Positions 1 through 14,298 of a DNA stretch of 14,487 bases are shown here, one piece after another. The notes below the pieces were generated by a model, which was not told the DNA's origin, searched no databases, and saw only the letters and a program-made list of their open reading frames with translations. Position 1 is the first letter of the stretch. Each line of letters starts with the position of its first letter. The position numbers and the translations under genes are program-made. The stretch spans positions 1 to 14,487 of the forward strand of contig CAIODE010000045.1 of NCBI GenBank assembly GCA_903856875.1, in the 5' to 3' direction. Origin of the DNA: an uncultured Burkholderiales bacterium. GTDB taxonomy: Bacteria > Pseudomonadota > Gammaproteobacteria > Burkholderiales > Burkholderiaceae_C.

Positions 1-66
1 ATGGTGGCAGGTTTTATAGCCGCTGAACAAGAATTGTTTGCTCAAACTGAAGAAGTGAAATCATGA
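1..66 (+). CDS. C-terminal end of an unidentified upstream gene (5' partial)
   Basis: The first frame of the window is open from base 1 and reads 21 codons, ending in FAQTEEVKS before a TGA at 64-66. That TGA overlaps the ATG of the next gene (63-65) in the classic ATGA coupling arrangement, which argues that this is the real tail of an upstream gene rather than chance. The ATG at base 1 is probably internal or coincidental, because the window edge falls there. The tail is too short to assign a family. Its overlap with a Bug receptor suggests a shared operon, perhaps an enzyme acting on the transported compound. Confidence 0.55.
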   Translation: MVAGFIAAEQELFAQTEEVKS

Positions 67-1112
67 AGTCAATGTCTACAACCCACTCAAATACTTTGAT
101 ACAGGCTCGAACACAAACCCATTCGTGGCATCGCCGTGCATTGCTGGCTTTGTTGCTAGGTGCAACTGCACTGACTTTTTTAACGACATCTTTTTCTTCC
201 TTCGCACAAACTGCCTGGCCCAATCGTCCCATTAAGTTGGTAGTGCCCTATGGCCCAGGCTCATCGCCAGATGTGATTGCCCGAATTGTTTCTGAAAAAT
301 TGTCGGCACGACTGGGGCAACCCGTTGTCATTGAAAACCGCGTTGGTGCAGGCGGCAATACGGGATCTGGCTTTGTCGCTAAATCAGCGGGCGACGGCTA
401 CACGTTTTTGATCAGTACCAACGGCCCCTTGGTTTACAACACCGTGCTTTATAAAAAACTAAGTTATGACCCATTCACTGAACTGAGGCCCGTTGTATTG
501 GCCGGTGGGCAGTCCAATGTGTGTGCCGTACGGTCTGATTCAGGCATCAATTCTTTGTCTGATTTGATTACTGCTATGCGCAGCAAGCCAGGTCAATTTA
601 ATTTCTCCTCAACTGGCATTGGCAGCTTGTCACAGCTGGGTGTAGAGCTTCTTAAAGTGAAGACAGACACCTTTGCTGTTCACATTCCTTATGTTTCTTC
701 ACCACTTGCCATCATGGCTATTTTGCAGGGTGATGTGCAATTTGCTTGCGTGCCAGCGGTGGCAGTATTGCCGCAAGTGAAGGCTGGAAAAATGCACGCT
801 TTGGCTGTGTCTACCGCCAAGCGCAGCCAATTCTTACCCGATGTGCCCACCATGAAAGAAGCGGGATTTACAGGTATCGAAAATGTAGCTTGGATGGCCA
901 TCATGGCACCTGCGACGACGTCCTCTGAAGTTGTTCAGCGCATGAATCAAGAAATCAATGCTGTTTTGGCCATGCCAGATGTCAAAGAAAAACTCTTTGG
1001 CCAGTACATGGAGCCCATCGGTGGCACAGAGTCTGAATTAAAAAATTTCATGCTTCAAGAACTGCGTGTCATGACACCTGTCATCAAACGCACGGGAATC
1101 ACCATTGAGTAA
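63..1112 (+). CDS. Bug/TctC-family periplasmic solute-binding protein
   Basis: This is a 349-residue extracytoplasmic receptor of the tripartite tricarboxylate transporter (TctC/Bug) family, which binds carboxylates or similar small organic acids in the periplasm. The N-terminus has basic residues (WHRRA, about 22-26), a hydrophobic core (27-42) and a probable signal-peptidase site after SFA (46-48). The mature protein opens with the family hallmark WPNRPIKLVVPYGPGSSPD, followed by the conserved GQPVVIENR and DGYTFL segments. Length is normal for the family. The start at 63 overlaps the preceding stop (ATGA); an in-frame ATG at 72 is an alternative. Its last codons overlap the FAD oxidoreductase start, so the two are translationally coupled. 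No TctA or TctB membrane partner lies nearby, which is common for Bug receptors. The ligand cannot be read from sequence. Confidence 0.93.
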   Translation: MKSMSTTHSNTLIQARTQTHSWHRRALLALLLGATALTFLTTSFSSFAQTAWPNRPIKLVVPYGPGSSPDVIARIVSEKLSARLGQPVVIENRVGAGGNTGSGFVAKSAGDGYTFLISTNGPLVYNTVLYKKLSYDPFTELRPVVLAGGQSNVCAVRSDSGINSLSDLITAMRSKPGQFNFSSTGIGSLSQLGVELLKVKTDTFAVHIPYVSSPLAIMAILQGDVQFACVPAVAVLPQVKAGKMHALAVSTAKRSQFLPDVPTMKEAGFTGIENVAWMAIMAPATTSSEVVQRMNQEINAVLAMPDVKEKLFGQYMEPIGGTESELKNFMLQELRVMTPVIKRTGITIE

Positions 1113-2478
1113 TCATTGGTCCGAGCCAGCACGTCAACTGCCCGTTTATGGTGAGTTCGATGTGGTGGTGGTTGGAGGTGGCCCCGCAGGCATAGCGGCC
1201 AGTTGGAGTGCAGCCAAACATGGCGCCAAGGTTTTATTGGTCGAGCGTTACGGCTTCTTAGGCGGCATGGGCACGGCAGGCGGTGTCACCAACTTTGCTG
1301 GTCTGTATGGCGTGCGGCAAGGCGAAATGAAACAAGTCGTTCACGGTGTGGTCGATGAAATCTTCGACCGCTTGCTGGCCATGGAAGGCTTGAACGAGCC
1401 GCAAGATGGCATGCAAGGCCGCATTCGTGTTCGCTCGTACGACATGTCGGCCTACAAATGTGTGGCCGATCAGATGATGGTGGATGCCGGTGTTGAACTT
1501 TTATTCCATGCTTGGGCAGCGCAAGTCAGCATGGAAGACAGCAGAATCAAAGCGCTCTTTGTAGAAACCAAATCAGGTCGTCAAGCCGTGTTCGCGAAAA
1601 GCTTCATCGATTGTTCGGGTGATGCTGATGTAGCGGCTTTCGCAGGTGTGCCCTATGAAACTGGCGATGGCCAAGGCAGTGGTCTTTATCCCACGACCAT
1701 GTTTCGATTGGCGCATGTCAACCCCGAAGCTGCTATGGCTGCCGTGGGTGAATTTCAAGCCATCAATCAGTTGATGAAAAAAGTGCAGATTGAAAAACCT
1801 GGGGCCTATCAATTTCCTCGTGAAGGCGCCATTTTGCGACCTCAAAAAAATCCATCCGAGTGGCGTGCCAACGTCACCCAGATTGCGCAGTCCAATGGAT
1901 GCGCCATGGACGCCACAGATGCACGCCAGTTAAGTCAGGGTGAGTTAGAAGGACGCCAACAAATTGGTGAATTTTTCCGTTTTTTGAAAAACGAAGTACC
2001 AGGGTTTTCTCAGGCTAACATCACTGAAATTGCGCCTCAAGTAGGCATTCGTGAAAGTCGCAGAATTCAAGGTGTCTATGCTTTAACGGGTCATGACATT
2101 CTCAGTTGCGCTTCATTTAAAGACAGCATCGGCTGCAGTGCATGGCCTATGGAAATGCATGCGCAAGGAAAGATTGAATGGCAATTTCCTAAGACACCCA
2201 CTGGCCCAAATGCAAGGCTTTACAACGATTTGCCCTGGCGAATGTTGGTGCCACGAACAGTCGCTAATTTATTGGTGGCTGGCAGATGTGCTTCCATGAC
2301 GCACGAAGGCCAGTCTGCTGCGCGCGTGAGTGGTGGATGTTTTGTCATGGGGCAGGCTGCTGGAACTGCGGCGGCCCATGTCAGTGATTCACTAGGCTTT
2401 GAACATCAGGATATTGCCGTTTTGCAGCAATACCTGATTCAGGATGCTTGTTATTTAGAGCTTGAAAAGATCAGTTAA
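1105..2478 (+). CDS. FAD-dependent oxidoreductase (FAD_oxidored family)
   Basis: This 457-residue flavoprotein has an N-terminal Rossmann dinucleotide-binding fold: beta strand DVVVV (19-23), then GGGPAG (24-29), with the acidic residue E in LLVERYG ending the second strand, followed by GGMGTAGG. A mid-protein DCSGDADVAA motif and a C-terminal LLVAGRCASMTHEGQSAARV-type segment (about 389-408) match the FAD-dependent oxidoreductases of PF12831. Start is TTG at 1105, 8 bases inside the preceding gene. No ATG lies before the Rossmann strand and the next GTG would cut into it, so TTG is the best choice. It is coupled to the Bug receptor and probably oxidises the imported compound or a derivative; the substrate is unknown. 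The last 24 bases overlap, tail to tail, the read-through frame of the hydrolase on the other strand. Confidence 0.88.
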   Translation: MSNHWSEPARQLPVYGEFDVVVVGGGPAGIAASWSAAKHGAKVLLVERYGFLGGMGTAGGVTNFAGLYGVRQGEMKQVVHGVVDEIFDRLLAMEGLNEPQDGMQGRIRVRSYDMSAYKCVADQMMVDAGVELLFHAWAAQVSMEDSRIKALFVETKSGRQAVFAKSFIDCSGDADVAAFAGVPYETGDGQGSGLYPTTMFRLAHVNPEAAMAAVGEFQAINQLMKKVQIEKPGAYQFPREGAILRPQKNPSEWRANVTQIAQSNGCAMDATDARQLSQGELEGRQQIGEFFRFLKNEVPGFSQANITEIAPQVGIRESRRIQGVYALTGHDILSCASFKDSIGCSAWPMEMHAQGKIEWQFPKTPTGPNARLYNDLPWRMLVPRTVANLLVAGRCASMTHEGQSAARVSGGCFVMGQAAGTAAAHVSDSLGFEHQDIAVLQQYLIQDACYLELEKIS

Positions 2479-2613
2479 GAAGCTTTGCACCGGCCCCTTT
2501 GCTTGGGGAAATGTCAGCACCGTATGAGGCCCGCCAGGAATCAAAACAATACTGGCTTTTTTATTGCTTTTCAGAAGTGCGCCGCAATGGCCTATGGCTT
2601 GTGCATTGCCCAA
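2455..2613 (-). pseudogene. Stranded C-terminal 52 codons of the alpha/beta hydrolase, same frame after the TAG
   Basis: Immediately after the TAG at 2614-2616, the same reading frame continues for 52 sense codons to a TAA at 2455-2457. It reads LGNAQAIGHCGALLKSN, then IVLIPGGPHTVLTFP, then VQSFLTDLFKL. This is what the hydrolase family should have after its catalytic Asp: a beta strand, a loop with the catalytic His (position 255 if the stop is counted as residue 225) and a final amphipathic helix. No frame change is needed and no independent start is evident. Full length would be 277 residues, normal for dienelactone-hydrolase-like proteins. It overlaps the last 24 bases of the FAD oxidoreductase on the opposite strand. 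Confidence 0.85.
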
Positions 2614-3288
2614 CTATGTGTTGCTAGGTGAAAAATAGGGGTCTGTTGAGCTGATGATGTTAAGTGTAGGTTGATCATCTGGAATAGCTGTTTTGTGCGC
2701 TGTGACAAAGTAATTGTCTTCACACGACCAAGCAAACATGATGCGACCCGCAAATTCTTTCCCTGTGTAGCGAGCGACTGGCACAGAGCCCTCACTGGTG
2801 CCCGACAGTACCATTTTGCTTTTGTCTGCCCATGACATTTGCTGGAGAGCTTTAAGGGTGATGTCAATTTCAGTGGCTCTGAAAGCGTGCAACTTTTCAT
2901 AGGTTTCTTTGTCAATCGGAGACGAGTAGGTCATCCGATCTCTGAGTGCAAATGAGTTGGGTGCAATGCTGGCGATGCCCAAGCTGGCAAGCCATTGCTG
3001 CCACTCACCAATGGCTTTCAAACCTAAACCTGAAGAGCCATGCATGAAAATCACAACGGGCACTTTGGCTGAACTTAATTTGGGCGCATCTTTCAAGGGG
3101 CCTACATAAACAGCACCTTGCACCAATGGAGCTGGAAAGGCAACTTGAGCCTCATTGACAAGTCCCGCACTTGATTCTGCTGTGTGAACCAGAGGGCCGG
3201 CTTTAATTTCGCCTTTGGGGGTTTGGGCGGATGCTAGGCTGCATGAAGTTGCAATTGCTATTGCAATTGAAATTGTTTTAATTGTCAT
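2614..3288 (-). CDS. Secreted alpha/beta hydrolase (dienelactone-hydrolase-like), truncated by in-frame TAG
   Basis: As it stands this encodes 224 residues. It begins with a Sec signal peptide (hydrophobic 6-19, likely cleavage after ASA near 19-21), so the protein is probably periplasmic. The fold is an alpha/beta hydrolase: strand VPVVIFMHGSSG (76-87) supplies the oxyanion region, GTSEG (163-167) is the nucleophile elbow with Ser165, and STDPYF (214-219) carries the likely catalytic Asp216. The frame stops at TAG 2614-2616 before any catalytic histidine. Translating on gives 52 codons in the same frame with His in GGPHTVL. The gene is therefore probably a nonsense allele or a sequence error, and the product as written should be inactive. 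The ATG overlaps the DUF1501 stop as ATGA, with AGGA about 11 bases upstream; it is the third gene of the DUF1800-DUF1501 operon. The substrate is unknown. Confidence 0.8.
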   Translation of the reverse strand: MTIKTISIAIAIATSCSLASAQTPKGEIKAGPLVHTAESSAGLVNEAQVAFPAPLVQGAVYVGPLKDAPKLSSAKVPVVIFMHGSSGLGLKAIGEWQQWLASLGIASIAPNSFALRDRMTYSSPIDKETYEKLHAFRATEIDITLKALQQMSWADKSKMVLSGTSEGSVPVARYTGKEFAGRIMFAWSCEDNYFVTAHKTAIPDDQPTLNIISSTDPYFSPSNT

Positions 3289-4721
3289 GATTTAAAGAGT
3301 CCTAATTTGTACAAGTCAAAATTTCTGGCATTCGGGAGCACCGTTTTGACATCGCTTGCACTGACGCCAAACCAGGCGGCCAACTCAGCTCCTAATTGAT
3401 CAACAGAGGTGCTTGGCAACAAGCGACCACTGCCAACTTGTTGGTTATGTGTCAGTCCTATTTCAGGGGCAGTACCTAAAAATTTCCCGCCATTGACTGC
3501 ACCGCCCATGACAAAGTGATGGCTTCCCCAGCCATGGTCAGAGCCATCGCCGTTAGAGGTCAGGGTACGACCAAAGTCAGACGCTGTGAAGGACGTCACT
3601 TGCGGGCCTTTGCCTAGGCTGGTCATGGCATCGTCAAATTCTTTCATGGCACTGCTTAATTTTTGAAGCAAAGCAGGATGCTGATCGGGTAAAAAATCAT
3701 GCAGGTCAAAGCCACCCATGCCCACCATGAAGACCTGCCGCTTCATGCCGAAGGCGGCTTGCTGCTCGATCATTCGTGCGACCATTTTGAGTTGAGCCGA
3801 TAGCGTGTTGGTGGCTGAACTTGAAAAGAGTGCGTTCATGCTTGCACTGGAGGTCGTGCCAATGGCCGCCACAATGCCGTCGTACGTGTCGAGCGCGCGT
3901 TTGGTCACTGTGGTGTAGTCGCTTGCCATTGGCAAAGAACTTGACTGCGTAATCAGGGTTTGCAAGGCTGCTGCGCAATTGGCCGATCCAAAAAGTGATT
4001 TGCCTTTGATGGCATTGACCGTGGTGGCGCCCGTTGAACTCATCTGGTACGAGATGGCATTTTGACCCGACAAAAAGAGTGCATTGCCATTGATGGAAAT
4101 ACACGTGAGTGTTGATTTGCTGTTGTTGCTTAAGAGTAAATCTGCAGCGCGCCCCCCCCATCCTGTAGCGCCGCCTTCAGCTTGAAAGGAGGACTGCCAA
4201 TAGGCTTGTTGATCGTTGTGTGAAAAAAGTTTAGGGGGCAAGGGAACAGATTTATTGTCGTACTGAATGCGGCTGGTGGGAACGACGAGAGGCCCTACAT
4301 TCATCAAGATCGATGCACGTTTGTTTTCGAACAAGGTTTTCAGTGCGCTCATCTCTGGGTTTAAAGCCATCTGCCGTCCATCGCTCAGCGCAGTGGACAA
4401 AGCAGTGGCTGAAAGTGAGTTACGGCCAATGGCGATGCCGTCGTAGACAGTGCCTGCCGCAGGTGTGCCTTTGCGGATATTGAAATAGTTGGTGTGAGTC
4501 GGTACGTCATAGGGAATGACTGTGTTGTAGTGGTCGTTGGCACCATATAAAAATATGCAAACCAAGGCTTTGTAATCGTTGGCCGATTGGGCTGCAGCAT
4601 CGGCCATCAATCCCAGACTGGTTGCCATGGGAATGCTGACGCGCTGTAGTGCCAGCGCAGCACTGCTTCTTAACAAGCTTCTGCGTGTCAAGCCGAGGTG
4701 TGAATGATTGTTGTTGGTCAT
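3285..4721 (-). CDS. DUF1501 family exported protein with Tat signal
   Basis: This 478-residue protein belongs to DUF1501, a family related in fold to the sulfatase/alkaline-phosphatase superfamily but of unestablished function. It has a twin-arginine signal (LTRRSLLRSS, 11-20), a hydrophobic stretch and a cleavage region near ADAAAQ (40-45), so it is probably exported folded. Family marks are FLYGANDHYNTVIP (57-70), SHNDQQAYWQS (167-177), TGWGGRAADLL (186-196), GGFDLHD (336-342), SDFGRT (381-386) and the GSDHGWGSHHFVMGG segment (393-407). The last two are the most conserved and contain the likely metal or phosphate-ester-type ligands. Its ribosome site (AAAGG) sits in the last codons of the DUF1800 gene, 4 bases upstream, and its stop overlaps the hydrolase start. 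A run of eight G on the coding strand (4152-4159) lies within the conserved GWGGR motif. Confidence 0.93.
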   Translation of the reverse strand: MTNNNHSHLGLTRRSLLRSSAALALQRVSIPMATSLGLMADAAAQSANDYKALVCIFLYGANDHYNTVIPYDVPTHTNYFNIRKGTPAAGTVYDGIAIGRNSLSATALSTALSDGRQMALNPEMSALKTLFENKRASILMNVGPLVVPTSRIQYDNKSVPLPPKLFSHNDQQAYWQSSFQAEGGATGWGGRAADLLLSNNSKSTLTCISINGNALFLSGQNAISYQMSSTGATTVNAIKGKSLFGSANCAAALQTLITQSSSLPMASDYTTVTKRALDTYDGIVAAIGTTSSASMNALFSSSATNTLSAQLKMVARMIEQQAAFGMKRQVFMVGMGGFDLHDFLPDQHPALLQKLSSAMKEFDDAMTSLGKGPQVTSFTASDFGRTLTSNGDGSDHGWGSHHFVMGGAVNGGKFLGTAPEIGLTHNQQVGSGRLLPSTSVDQLGAELAAWFGVSASDVKTVLPNARNFDLYKLGLFKS

Positions 4722-4725
4722 GGCA

Positions 4726-6429
4726 TTACCTTTGAATGAGGTAGTCGGTGCTGCTCATCACCATGAGAACAGCAGCATAAATGCGGTTGAGTAGCCCTGT
4801 TTCAGTGGCTGCTGAGATGCTGGTAATGGCGTTGACAATTAGGCTTTGACTGGCAGGGGTTAGAGCGCCAGAAGCCAGACACAGATTCAGATGGGCAACC
4901 AAGGCTGTAGGATCTATTGCCAATGTTTTTTCTATGCTGTAGTCGGCCTTGATGTTGCGCGCGTTGTTCACGGTGCCCGCCATGTAATTGATATAGCCCA
5001 CCACCGTGGGCTCGGTCAGTATTTGAAACTCTGGCGCAACAAGGTTTTGCGATGCCACTTGGGTATTCGGTGGTACATAGCCTGGCCTGAAAAAGTTGAA
5101 CACAGAGGGTGATCGCATGGGCATCTGACCCAAGGAGGTTTCGGCATCGGTGTAACCTAGAGTCCATGCGCCATCGGTGGATGTGGCACGAAAGGTGTGC
5201 CCCCATTGAAGCAGCCTGACCATCGGTTCCGACAGTTTGCCAAAACTTGAAGCTGCGTTAACTTGGCGAGCTTCTGTGTCCATCAAAATAGCGGTCCAAA
5301 CGGCTTTCATATCGCCCCTGACGCCTTTGCCGTTGTTTACAAATATTTTGGCAACACGTGCAACATAGGCGGGCGATGGATTGCTGGTCACCAGACGTTG
5401 AATGAGTTGCTTTGCAATGAACGGAGCTGTGTTGTTGTGCTGAAAAAGTGTGTCAAGCGCAATTCTTAAGCTTTCAACGCCAGCAGTGCCTGCTGGAACA
5501 GTGACGCCTAAAAATTTCTTTTCTTCTGGACTGTGCAAACTGACGGTGAGCATCATGGGCAAACCATGCCGATAGGCTGCGCTGGCTAATTCACCTGTAG
5601 CGTCAGTGCCAGTGGCCGTATTCCAACCTGTGAACACTTTGGCAAGGCCTTGAATGTCTACGTTGTCATAGCTTTCAATGGGCTTGCCTTGTGAGTCCAT
5701 TTGAAGTGTGCCATCGATGTTCAGTTGGTACAGCCCAATGGTGAACAATTGCATCACTTCTCGTGCATAGTTTTCATCGGGTGAACGTCCTGTTTTGGCG
5801 TCGTATTTCTGATTGCCCTTCATGTTCAAATAAGTGCCCATGGCCGAAGACAAGGTGACGCTTTCTAAGAGAGTTCTAAAGTTACCTAAAGCATTGGCTT
5901 CAAGAATTTCCCAATAGTTGGCAATGGCAAAATTACGCCAAGAAAAGGGCAGCCCTAGATGCGATACGACAAATAATTCTGACAAGGCCAATGCGGCCCG
6001 TTGCCTAAACAAGTCTGAAGCGCTAAACAGTTTCCACCAAATGGACTGAACCCAGCCGCCATCGCCATTCACGTTGTTGTTCACGCTGGCGTCATTGAAA
6101 CCTTTTTCGATCAACCAATGCGTTAGCGATTGACCCTGTGGTGCACTGAATTGAGCATTGAGCCAGCCTTGTTGACCTGATACAGCCAAGTCTTTGATTT
6201 CGTTGCTTGTGCCGCCCCAAGAAGCTTGCCGCAAAAAACGAGCGGCATCGATGAGGGTCACATTGTTCGCCGAACTGTTGTCTGGCGCTATAGCGGTTGT
6301 TGTGGATGTTTCGCCACCTCCGCCACAAGCAGTTAATAGAACTGTCCCAGATAGGCCTAGCACCGCAAGGGGGGATGCTTCGGATACCGTGTGTTGACTC
6401 TCGAGTTCAACAATCGTTGCGGCGGTCAT
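4726..6429 (-). CDS. DUF1800 family protein with lipobox-like N-terminus
   Basis: This 567-residue protein is of DUF1800, a family of unknown function nearly always encoded beside DUF1501. Family segments visible are ARFLRQASWGG (63-73), DENYAREVMQLFTIGLYQLN (218-237), a GKGVRGDMKAVWTAILMD stretch (367-384) and RSPSVFNFFRPGYVPP (439-454). A hydrophobic stretch (20-34) ends in LTAC followed by four glycines (Cys35), which resembles a lipoprotein signal, but the preceding 19 residues carry no Lys or Arg and three acidic residues. An in-frame TAG upstream leaves ATG 6429 as the only conventional start, with AAAGG about 8 bases before it. It is first in the operon DUF1800-DUF1501-hydrolase. The pair is thought to act together outside the cytoplasm; a biochemical role is not established. 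Confidence 0.92.
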   Translation of the reverse strand: MTAATIVELESQHTVSEASPLAVLGLSGTVLLTACGGGGETSTTTAIAPDNSSANNVTLIDAARFLRQASWGGTSNEIKDLAVSGQQGWLNAQFSAPQGQSLTHWLIEKGFNDASVNNNVNGDGGWVQSIWWKLFSASDLFRQRAALALSELFVVSHLGLPFSWRNFAIANYWEILEANALGNFRTLLESVTLSSAMGTYLNMKGNQKYDAKTGRSPDENYAREVMQLFTIGLYQLNIDGTLQMDSQGKPIESYDNVDIQGLAKVFTGWNTATGTDATGELASAAYRHGLPMMLTVSLHSPEEKKFLGVTVPAGTAGVESLRIALDTLFQHNNTAPFIAKQLIQRLVTSNPSPAYVARVAKIFVNNGKGVRGDMKAVWTAILMDTEARQVNAASSFGKLSEPMVRLLQWGHTFRATSTDGAWTLGYTDAETSLGQMPMRSPSVFNFFRPGYVPPNTQVASQNLVAPEFQILTEPTVVGYINYMAGTVNNARNIKADYSIEKTLAIDPTALVAHLNLCLASGALTPASQSLIVNAITSISAATETGLLNRIYAAVLMVMSSTDYLIQR

Positions 6430-7349: not shown

Positions 7350-8342
7350 TCAATCTGGCTTGATGTTGTTGTCACGAACCACTTTGGCCCATGTGTCTAT
7401 TTGTTTGTCAATGAAGATCTTGGCTTTGTCGACACTGCCACCTGAAATGTCGATGCCCTGAGCACTTAATCTTTGAGATACCTCTGGGTTTTGTAAAACC
7501 TTGTTCAGCTCTTCGTTCATTCGCTTCACAAGCTCGGGTGGTGTTTTGGCTGAAGCCAAAAGCGCCCACCAGGCAGGGGCCTCAAAGCCTGGATACCCTG
7601 CTTCTGCAATGGTTGGAATTTCTGGAAACTCAGGCACACGTTTAAGTGAGGTCACAGCCAAAGGACGAATGCGTTTGTTGTCAATGTGCGGCTTGCTTAA
7701 GAAAACAGTGCCCATGGCCAATGGCACATGGCCAGCAACGGCGTCTGTCATCAGAGGGCCGCCGCCTTTGTAGGGAATGTGGTTGAACTCTAGGTTGGCA
7801 TTCTTTCCTAGCAAAGCCATGGCCAAGTGGCCTAAGCTGCCATTGCCGATGGTGCCAAATGAAACATTTTTCTTAGCCTTAGCAGCTGCCACCACATCTG
7901 CAAAAGTTTTGTACTCGTTACCGACATTGGAGGTTAGAACCATGGCGGAGGTGCCCACCAAAATCAGAGGAACCAAGTCTTTCTTGCTGTCATAGGGCAT
8001 GTTGGGCATTAAGCTTTGGTTCACGCCGTGAGTGTCAAATACCACTGCAAAGGTATAGCCATCTGCAGGAGAAGCCAGCACCGCAGACGTTCCAATGACG
8101 CCTGATGCGCCGCCTTTGTTTTCAACAATGACGCTTTGCCCTAATTGTTGCGACAAAACAGGTGCAATGATCCTAGCCACTTGATCAACAGAGCCACCAG
8201 GTGGGAAAACTGCTACAAGTTTGATGGGTTGCTTGGTGGGCCAAGCTTGTGCCAAAACCAGTGTGGGCAGCAAGCAGCAGAGAAGCAGAATTGACTTCAA
8301 ATTTTGGCTGAGTGAGAGTTGGCTAGAGAGACGGGTTGACAT
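7350..8342 (-). CDS. Bug/TctC-family periplasmic solute-binding protein (second copy)
   Basis: This 330-residue TctC/Bug-type receptor has a signal peptide with hydrophobic core LKSILLLCCLLPTLVLA (15-31), cleaved near VLA or AQA. The mature start is WPTKQPIKLVAVFPPGGSVD, followed by QSVIVENKGGASG, ADGYTFAVVF and the C-terminal PELVKRMNEELNKVL helix, all typical. It is clearly a paralogue, not a duplicate, of the receptor at 63-1112. AAAGGA lies about 9 bases before the ATG. No transporter membrane subunits are near. It is transcribed alone and diverges from a class V aminotransferase, which hints at an amino- or keto-acid ligand; that link is inference only. Confidence 0.93.
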   Translation of the reverse strand: MSTRLSSQLSLSQNLKSILLLCCLLPTLVLAQAWPTKQPIKLVAVFPPGGSVDQVARIIAPVLSQQLGQSVIVENKGGASGVIGTSAVLASPADGYTFAVVFDTHGVNQSLMPNMPYDSKKDLVPLILVGTSAMVLTSNVGNEYKTFADVVAAAKAKKNVSFGTIGNGSLGHLAMALLGKNANLEFNHIPYKGGGPLMTDAVAGHVPLAMGTVFLSKPHIDNKRIRPLAVTSLKRVPEFPEIPTIAEAGYPGFEAPAWWALLASAKTPPELVKRMNEELNKVLQNPEVSQRLSAQGIDISGGSVDKAKIFIDKQIDTWAKVVRDNNIKPD

Positions 8343-11042: not shown

Positions 11043-12224
11043 TTAATTTGGCGCTACAAGTCCAAATTTTTTGATCAGTCGATTTTTAGCGCTAGGTAAA
11101 AAGTTAATTTTTGAGATGTCGCCCTGAAGTGTTTTGATCAAAAGTGGATCCATCACCCGATACCAAAGGGGCGGTAAATAAGCCAAGAAAAACATCCCAA
11201 AATAGCCAGAGGGCAACCTGGGAAGCTCTGGAAAATCACGCAGTGATTGGTAGCTTCGGCCCGGATGAGCATGGTGGTCCGAATGACGCTGCAGTTGAAA
11301 CAACACCAGGTTGGAAACCAAATGGTTGCTGTTCCATGAGTGGTGTGGTTGGCAATTTTCGTAATTGCCATTGGTTGTTTTGAGCCGTTGAATGCCGTAA
11401 TGCTCAACGTAATTGGCCGATGTCAATTGAAATGCACCCCAAATTCCCACTGGAATGAGAACGATCACCATGTCTAAGCCGTAATGGCTGATCAAGCTAC
11501 CATGCACCAAAGCCGTTAGGCAAAGCGCTTGAAGAATTTCATTCTCAAAATGCCAAACAGATTTAGTTTGCCGCTGTAGCCGAGCAGCTTCAAGTCGCCA
11601 AGCACGCAGGGCTGCGCCAGGCATTTCTCTACAAGCAAACTGATAGATGTTCTCTCCCATTTTGGAAGATGCTGGATCTTCAGGCGTGCTCACATGGCGG
11701 TGATGACCTCGGTTGTGTTCTATGGAAAAGTGACCATAGGCACCCAAAGCCGTATTGAACAGCGCAATTTTCCGAGGCACTGTTTGCAGTTTATGGCCCA
11801 GTTCATGGCTGACGTTTAAGCCAAAACCTAAAACCGATCCGGTGGCCATGACGGTGGCTAGCCATTCCAATGTCGTCAATGAAAATGTACACAGGAAAAT
11901 GCAGTTAAAAATAACAGCAATCCATAAGATTGGAATGGTTGCGTAAGTGATCCATCGGTAATAGGCATCGGCTTCTAAAGCCTCAATCGATGATTCGGGT
12001 GGATTGCTGATGTCCTCGCCAATCAGGAAATCTAAAAATGGCACAAAGAAGTAATAGAAAACAAAAGGGAAAAATAAGATCCAACTGCTGACCCCAAAGC
12101 CAGAAACCGCAACTGTGCCAACCAGTGCGACAGCAGGCCCCACGACAGAAAATAACCACGCAAAACGCTTCTTATCTACGTAAGAGGGCAATGGGTTCTG
12201 GCGATCTTGAATGGCTGACGTCAA
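11043..12224 (-). CDS. alkB: AlkB-type alkane 1-monooxygenase
   Basis: This is a membrane-bound, non-haem di-iron hydroxylase of 393 residues that converts n-alkanes to 1-alkanols at the inner membrane, with electrons from rubredoxin. The four diagnostic motifs are present: Hist-1 HELGHK (140-145), Hist-2 EHNRGHHRHV (169-178), the HYG box in NYVEHYGIQ (271-279) and Hist-3 LQRHSDHHAHPGRSYQ (311-326). Hydrophobic segments at about 23-43, 46-68, 90-112, 118-136, 237-262 and 341-355 fit the six-helix topology. No rubredoxin or rubredoxin reductase gene lies in the window and no rubredoxin domain is fused. It diverges from the alkyl sulfatase across a dyad-containing promoter region and converges on the MFS gene. 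Chain-length preference cannot be read with confidence. Confidence 0.95.
   Translation of the reverse strand: MTSAIQDRQNPLPSYVDKKRFAWLFSVVGPAVALVGTVAVSGFGVSSWILFFPFVFYYFFVPFLDFLIGEDISNPPESSIEALEADAYYRWITYATIPILWIAVIFNCIFLCTFSLTTLEWLATVMATGSVLGFGLNVSHELGHKLQTVPRKIALFNTALGAYGHFSIEHNRGHHRHVSTPEDPASSKMGENIYQFACREMPGAALRAWRLEAARLQRQTKSVWHFENEILQALCLTALVHGSLISHYGLDMVIVLIPVGIWGAFQLTSANYVEHYGIQRLKTTNGNYENCQPHHSWNSNHLVSNLVLFQLQRHSDHHAHPGRSYQSLRDFPELPRLPSGYFGMFFLAYLPPLWYRVMDPLLIKTLQGDISKINFLPSAKNRLIKKFGLVAPN
11045..11072 (+). terminator. Candidate terminator for the MFS gene, inside the 3' end of alkB
   Basis: AATTTGG (11045-11051) pairs with CCAAATT (11062-11068) across a 10-base loop, followed on the + strand by further T (six T in all, 11067-11072). 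It would end MFS transcription but lies within the last codons of the oppositely oriented alkB. The short, AT-rich stem makes this moderate at best. Confidence 0.4.
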
Positions 12225-12277
12225 AATAGAATCTACGATGCAGTTTGATGTGTGAAGTATGCCTCATGATCTTTGAA

Positions 12278-12302
12278 TGAACAGGGTATTACCCCTAGTT
12301 CA
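12278..12302. promoter_or_regulatory. Dyad between alkB and alkyl sulfatase, candidate operator
   Basis: Nested arms TGAAC and GGGTA (12278-12282, 12284-12288) mirror TACCC and GTTCA (12290-12294, 12298-12302) around T12289. The spacers are unequal (1 and 3 bases), so symmetry is imperfect. Its place between two functionally linked divergent genes makes it a candidate regulator site. Confidence 0.4.
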
Positions 12303-12332
12303 AACGGCAGGCGTGGTTTATAACATCACGCT

Positions 12333-12338
12333 AAGGAG
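12333..12338 (+). promoter_or_regulatory. Strong ribosome binding site deciding the alkyl sulfatase start
   Basis: AAGGAG ends 7 bases before ATG 12346. The longer frame's ATG at 12277 has no such site and would translate through the dyad and the -10-like box. Confidence 0.8.
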
Positions 12339-12345
12339 TTTATCA

Positions 12346-14298
12346 ATGCGCGGTAGTTTTGACGAGGTGATTCGAGGCGGTCGCGTCTTTGCGGTATGCA
12401 TGGGAATTTGTGGATTGATGGCCTGTCAGAAGCTGGAATCAACTTCAAGTTCATCCAAAATACCAGCGCAGTCAAGAAGTGCCGATTGGCTTGAAAAAAG
12501 CGATGCCAGAAAAGGCTTTGTGGCGTCACCTTCTGGTCAGATCAAAGATGCACAGGGCAAAGTCATTTGGGACTTCGATGCCTTTGCCTTTATTCAAGGC
12601 GATGCGCCCTCAACAGTCAATCCAAGTTTGTGGCGCCAAGCCACTTTGAACAACCAAATTGGCCTGTTCAAAGTGACCGAGGGCATCTGGCAGTTAAGAG
12701 GCTTTGATCTGGCCAACATGACCTTGATTCAAGGCAAGACGGGCTGGATTGTGGTGGATGCCCTGACTGCACAAGAAACATCGGCGGCGGCACTGGCGTT
12801 TGCACGGCAACATTTGGGTCCGCAAAAAGTCTCTGGCCTTATTTTCACGCACAGCCATGCCGATCATTTTGGAGGGGCATTGGGCGTGGTGAGTGCAGAA
12901 GAAGCCAAAGCACGAAAACTGCCCATCGTTGCACCTTCGGGCTTTATGGAAGAGGCCACCAGTGAAAATATTCTCATGGGCCCCGCCATGGGCCGCCGTG
13001 CCATGTACATGTATGGCAGCAACTTAGCCAAAAGTCCAACAGGTCTTGTGGACAATGGCTTGGGCAAAGCGGTTGCGTTTGGAAAGATCGGTATTTTGCA
13101 ACCCAACATCACGGTTCAATTAGAAAAACAGGACTTGCTGATTGATGGCGTTCGTTTTGTTTTTCACAATGTGCCTGGCAGTGAGGCACCCTCGGAGTTC
13201 ACTTTCTATTTGCCTGACTTCAAGGCATTTTGTGGCGCCGAAATCATGGGCCACACCTTGCACAACCTCTATACCTTGCGCGGTGCCAAGGTGCGCGATG
13301 CCACCAAGTGGGCATCCTATTTGAATGACTCTTTGCGCTATGTCGAAAATTCAGAAGTGGTGTTCAATCAGCATCATTGGCCGGTCTGGGGGGCAGCCAA
13401 TATTCAAGACTTCATTGTCAAGCAAAGAGATACTTACCAGTTCATTCACGATCAAACAGTTCGGCAAATGAATGCGGGCCTGAACGCTGCCGAAATTGCT
13501 GAAAATCTTCGGCTGCCGCCAGCGCTTGACGAGCATTTGAGTGTGCGGGGTTATTACGGTACGGTTCGGCACAACGTGAAAGCGGTCTACCAAAACTACA
13601 TGGGCTGGTTTGATGCGCATCCTTCCAACCTTGACCCTTTGCCCGCTGTGCAAGCCTCTGAAAAATACGTCAGCCTCATGGGTGGTGTCGACAAAGTGAT
13701 CGCGGCAGCCCAAGAATCCATGGGTAAAGCAGATTACCGCTGGGCTGCAGAACTGCTTAAGCATGCGGTCTATGTGGCGCCCAAAAATACCCAAGCCAAG
13801 GCCTTGTTAGCACAGTCTTTTGAAAAACTGGGCTATGCAGCCGAGTCATCGGCTTGGCGAAACTTTTACCTCACAGGCGCACTGGAATTGCGCGAAGGTA
13901 CGCCCGAAAAAGGCATGCCGCGCGAAGGCATGATCGACATGCTGAACCAAACGCCCATCGAACGATTTTTGGAGGCCATGGCCGCATCCCTCAATGCCCC
14001 AAAGGCCGAAGGCAAAAAAATGAAAATCAACTTGGTGTTTTCAGACACCCAACAAAGTTTTGTCTTGTCCCTTGATAATTCTGTGTTGCATCATGTGAAG
14101 GCGCATCCTGATCAAAATGCGAACGCAACCCTCACTTTGACCCAGCCATTTTTCATCAAAATGGTGCTGGGCCAAGCTGGGGCCAAAGACTTGCTCTTGT
14201 CGGATCAAACCAAGATCGAAGGCAGCACAATTGATTTGGCTTTGTTTTTCAGCATGATTGACAAAGCCCCAGGTAATTTTTCCATTGTCACGAGGTAA
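12346..14298 (+). CDS. Linear primary alkyl sulfatase, SdsA1-type metallo-beta-lactamase fold
   Basis: This 650-residue enzyme of the SdsA1/alkyl-sulfatase family hydrolyses medium- and long-chain primary alkyl sulfates to alcohol and sulfate. The N-terminal metallo-beta-lactamase domain has the di-zinc motif [10 protein letters not shown] (168-177). The family segment [16 protein letters not shown], then RGAKVRDA, supplies further metal and substrate residues, followed by HHWPVWG and the [20 protein letters not shown] stretch. A helical dimerisation region follows, and the last 120 or so residues form the SCP2-like C-terminal domain. Start 12346 is preferred over 12277 because AAGGAG sits 7 bases upstream. 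From there the N-terminus is basic, then hydrophobic, ending in GLMAC (Cys27), a plausible lipobox with Met at -2, followed by a Ser-rich linker. It is divergent from alkB and 5 bases before a GMC dehydrogenase. Confidence 0.92.

Follow-up and report, generated by a model that had tools for sequence, protein, structure and literature searches.

Recent nonsense pseudogenes and strain-level null alleles are common in bacterial populations, and the in-frame TAG described here shares with the ordinary ones a single point lesion, the lack of further decay and an intact sister form; in kind the case is ordinary. The interrupted gene encodes an alpha/beta-hydrolase whose closest described systems are the dienelactone hydrolases (PF01738) and the alpha/beta-hydrolases of the feruloyl-esterase/carboxylesterase type, with which its intact form has in common the Ser-Asp-His order, a GTSEG nucleophile elbow and the fold. 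The classical dienelactone hydrolase uses a cysteine nucleophile, whereas the hydrolase studied here has a serine. Its upstream neighbors belong to the DUF1501 and DUF1800 families, which are described in PMC5122149 as a predicted single operon that in some bacteria neighbors genes for chitin synthase (both terms also occur together in PMC6653060). No chitin synthase was found by Pfam among the scanned genes of the window, that is, the whole stretch of 14,487 bases analyzed here (the second TctC-type gene of Table 1 lies outside that scan).

Table 1. Features of the hydrolase locus and its neighbors in the window.
Feature	Coordinates	Strand	Evidence
Frame of 277 positions for a probably secreted alpha/beta-hydrolase (dienelactone-hydrolase-like), with one in-frame TAG	2455..3288	-	Sequence, homology
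In-frame TAG, codon 225	2614..2616	-	Trp in 133/133 listed relatives; TGG in 44/53 distinct genome loci
Product of 224 residues encoded up to the TAG, with the N-terminus, Ser165 (nucleophile) and Asp216 (acid) but no catalytic histidine	2617..3288	-	Frame reading, alignment
52 codons past the stop: strand 245-250, catalytic His255, final helix 261-275	2458..2613	-	Model of intact homologue, alignment
DUF1501 gene, upstream, same direction, 4-base overlap with the hydrolase start	3285..4721	-	Pfam
DUF1800 gene, at the head of the likely operon	4726..6429	-	Pfam
FAD-dependent oxidoreductase, convergent, 24-base overlap with the hydrolase 3' end	1105..2478	+	Pfam
TctC gene, converges on DUF1800-DUF1501-hydrolase	63-1112		
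TctC-type gene	7350-8342		TctC profile match

The hydrolase frame (3288-2455, minus strand) opens with an ATG, runs through 224 sense codons to the TAG and continues without any frame change through 52 more sense codons to a TAA at 2455-2457, just as a sequence-only reading of this DNA had described it. A signal peptide, also proposed by that reading, seems plausible on sequence grounds. Judging from the frequency of stop triplets in the window, a run of 52 open codons past a stop has a probability of about 0.14, so the openness of the tail is by itself weak evidence and homology has to decide. The tail is more than chance, since residues 226-277 are identical to those of an intact 277-residue database protein (P0001) and align with the C-terminus of the family.

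Relatives were collected by two protein searches, one with X at the stop position (1055 proteins at E <= 0.001) and the other with the 224-residue product alone (1040 proteins); the best 120 of each were examined and together comprise 133 distinct listed relatives. All 133 have tryptophan opposite the TAG, followed by 47-58 further residues. Ser165 and Asp216 are present in every one of them and His255 in 132 (the exception is P0052), which bears out the placement of the triad by the earlier reading; in an alignment of 57 sequences (50 proteins and 7 translated genome loci) the triad is invariant and Trp225 is conserved in at least 90%. No 224-residue form of the hydrolase was found among these listed matches (the 120 best of either search) and none ends naturally at the SPSNT that precedes the stop, an ending that would have spoken against an interrupted gene. 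At the level of DNA, 55 genome loci were examined, 52 from one genome search and 3 from another, of which 53 are distinct after removal of two in the smaller set that repeat genes of the larger one (L006 = L012 and L007 = L015). The position is occupied by TGG in 44 loci and by a tyrosine codon in seven, all of them matches of 38-48% identity; one contig ends before the position (L047) and one locus (L008), a distant relative (28%) whose matched stretch contains one stop, has a gap there. A stop at codon 225 was thus found in none of the 51 distinct loci with a codon at that position. The hydrolase had no match in the viral contigs scanned. The named relatives bearing the gene include Limnohabitans and other Comamonadaceae, and the source organism is probably a freshwater Limnohabitans-like bacterium.

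The nearest intact form, P0001, has 277 residues with Trp225 and is the same as the window at all 276 other positions. It was found on three contigs, the longest of 18,098 bases, which is longer than the 14,487-base contig of the window and hence a different one. Two further proteins, P0002 and P0003, differ from P0001 by one and two residues respectively, and all three are free of the stop. In the genome to which the window belongs (88.9% complete), the sole match to P0001 is the window's own hydrolase, with one TAG inside it.

Past the stop position, the structure that AlphaFold2 predicts for P0001 (mean pLDDT 91.9) has a strand, the loop bearing His255 and a helix (Table 1). Compared with the PDB, the model gave 1152 fold matches at E <= 0.001, with alpha/beta-hydrolases at the top; the best are feruloyl esterases, the serine hydrolase YjfP and dienelactone hydrolases, at TM ~0.5-0.6 and ~15% identity. 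The intact homologue thus has the alpha/beta-hydrolase fold with a Ser-Asp-His triad, whereas the 224-residue product of the window is without the histidine. Deprived also of a core strand and of the last helix, this product should be catalytically dead and is probably unstable. Membership of PF01738 in the strict sense was not obtained: P0001 scores 18.4 bits against a cut-off of 21, and the label is carried by 4 of the best 120 of 1055 relatives and absent from the other 116. Two relatives, P0017 (25.0 bits) and P0027 (24.8 bits), score above the cut-off, both having been picked because they already carried the label. Neither the 224-residue product nor the X-bearing 277-residue frame has a Pfam match at E <= 0.001, no NCBIfam model matches the intact hydrolase at that threshold, and a PDB sequence search with the hydrolase gave no significant relative (best E 0.13).

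The explanation that we favor, with a probability of roughly 0.6, is a recent nonsense (null) allele: the stop stands where homologues have a sense codon, and the frame downstream of it still resembles the family. The conserved tryptophan codon of a dienelactone-hydrolase-like serine hydrolase would have become TAG in the lineage behind this assembly; translation would end at residue 224, and the product, deprived of its core strand, catalytic histidine and closing helix, would be unfolded or inactive. The lesion would be very young, since the intact and otherwise identical protein exists in other assemblies, and it is probably polymorphic in the population.

Substitution rates are consistent with a lesion of this age. 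The nearest named locus (L009, from a Comamonadaceae MAG, with a 90% identical protein) gives dN 0.014 and dS 0.279 for residues 23-224 and dN 0.052 and dS 0.575 for residues 226-277, dN being well below dS on either side of the stop; the first 22 codons are strongly divergent (dN 0.785, dS 0.961). Amino acid changes with respect to this locus are denser in the tail (6 of 52 codons) than in residues 23-224 (6 of 202 codons), which by itself would tell against the favored explanation. The changes in the tail are older than the stop, however, given that P0001 has the residue of the window at all positions other than 225. Against two other loci (L010 and L011), dN is lower in the tail than in the body of the protein (0.057 and 0.071 vs. 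0.143 and 0.148). If the stop is real, both parts of the gene thus appear to have gone on evolving in a functional enzyme up to very recent times.

A wrong base is the other live alternative, and the pair first offered by the sequence-only reading, a recent nonsense mutation or a base error, is still the pair to be weighed. Under a sequencing or assembly error, the organism would possess an intact gene and the consensus base would either be wrong or come from a rare read or a mixed strain. The three near-identical proteins without the stop agree with it, and so does the quality of the assembly, a fragmented draft of 592 contigs with 88.88% completeness. In one of the 60 contigs sampled, C26, a frame that we take to be RapZ-like (L109, positions 1-100) enters GC-rich sequence at the contig end and is continued in no frame, and this end looks like a chimera. 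Fragmentation and a seemingly chimeric contig end therefore leave an error with an appreciable share of the probability, roughly half that of a real allele. It is set against by the genome's own record: no internal stop was found in 167 domain matches (66 TctC, 54 ABC_tran, 27 adh_short_C2 and 20 AMP-binding), of which the 113 non-ABC matches comprise 30,160 codons (17,437 + 5,715 + 7,008) and two TctC matches lie within the window. Stop-making base errors are consequently not common in this assembly, which is why we lean toward the nonsense allele. Additionally, the DUF1501, FAD oxidoreductase (457 residues) and TctC genes have the same length in L009, and the other 11 genes of the window are without internal stops, which counts for little since they were picked as open frames.

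The TAG might instead be read as an amino acid through a suppressor tRNA or a reassigned codon, so that the full enzyme would be made. A single in-frame TAG at a tryptophan position followed by a conserved tail is what such recoding would look like, and at this degree of genome completeness a suppressor tRNA may have escaped the assembly; recoding is nevertheless largely refuted and, in our estimate, very improbable. The release factor 1 gene (prfA) is intact, scoring 498.5 bits where the cut-off is 423.25, and has no stop inside. Among the 20 tRNA genes found by ARAGORN (in a genome 88.88% complete, so that the tRNA count is not final), none has a CTA anticodon; that of the tRNA-Trp detected is CCA. 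Nor is the in-frame TAG repeated: the domain matches counted above contain none, and of the 156 non-overlapping open frames of at least 200 codons in 60 of the 592 contigs (291,723 bases), 9 end in TAG, the hydrolase included. Five of the other eight close within 5 to 18 codons past the TAG. Of the remaining three, the RapZ-like frame runs for 10 codons and then off its contig end, L115 stays open for 53 codons with an unfamiliar translation, and L104 goes on for 263 codons, probably a distinct gene that comes next. In this genome TAG serves as an ordinary stop. A codon-usage scan for stop-split genes over the same 60 contigs was also tried and proved insensitive, since the known hydrolase tail scored -0.001, that is, not coding; its 23 hits seem to be mostly adjacent genes in the same frame, and the domain matches were used in its place.

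A working truncated enzyme relative of 224 residues, with some role other than hydrolysis, is equally improbable; it has in its favor only the retained Ser165 and Asp216, while no listed relative ends there and the missing part holds an invariant histidine and a core strand.

The main consequence is for annotation, where the present sequence would be entered as a complete protein of 224 residues without its catalytic histidine. If the nonsense allele is real, it illustrates cleanly how an accessory enzyme looks just after its inactivation, while an intact sister form exists elsewhere. A literature search for premature stops and polymorphism in metagenome-assembled genomes yielded no relevant paper among the matches listed, as judged by title and the start of the abstract.

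The gene is patchy in its genus: of 35 same-genus genomes 3 have a match, which in one case is a 31% relative, and many genomes lacking it are 99-100% complete, which fits an accessory and dispensable gene. DUF1800 and DUF1501 lie beside the hydrolase in four loci (L009, L010, L011 and L047); loci L006-L008 and L048 span less than 4 kb and contig ends truncate others, so that the absence of a neighbor there is not always informative. The earlier description of the hydrolase as third gene of the operon holds in the window but not in two of those four loci (L009 and L011), where an Abhydrolase_10-type gene of ~650 codons stands between DUF1501 and the hydrolase; this gene is absent from the window and from L010, and its sole match in the window's own genome is a 38% relative on contig C15. 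When window positions 3229-3291 are compared with L009 positions 1681-3718, the window lacks the Abhydrolase_10 gene and also diverges strongly in the first 22 hydrolase codons, the remainder of the hydrolase being almost unchanged, as if a replacement or deletion had ended there. A far more speculative idea, to which we attach very little probability, is that the hydrolase is under on/off selection, with loss alleles and intact ones kept side by side through sharing of the secreted product or exposure of the locus to phages or predators, and with the variable Abhydrolase_10 neighbor involved in the same turnover.

Elsewhere in the window, a gene of the fatty-acid-desaturase family (11043-12224) adjoins one for an alkyl-sulfatase-type protein of metallo-beta-lactamase fold with dimerization and C-terminal SCP2-like domains (12277-14298). 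The 66 TctC-type tripartite transporter receptor matches of this genome, two of them in the window, are contained in 2.6 Mb of sequence.
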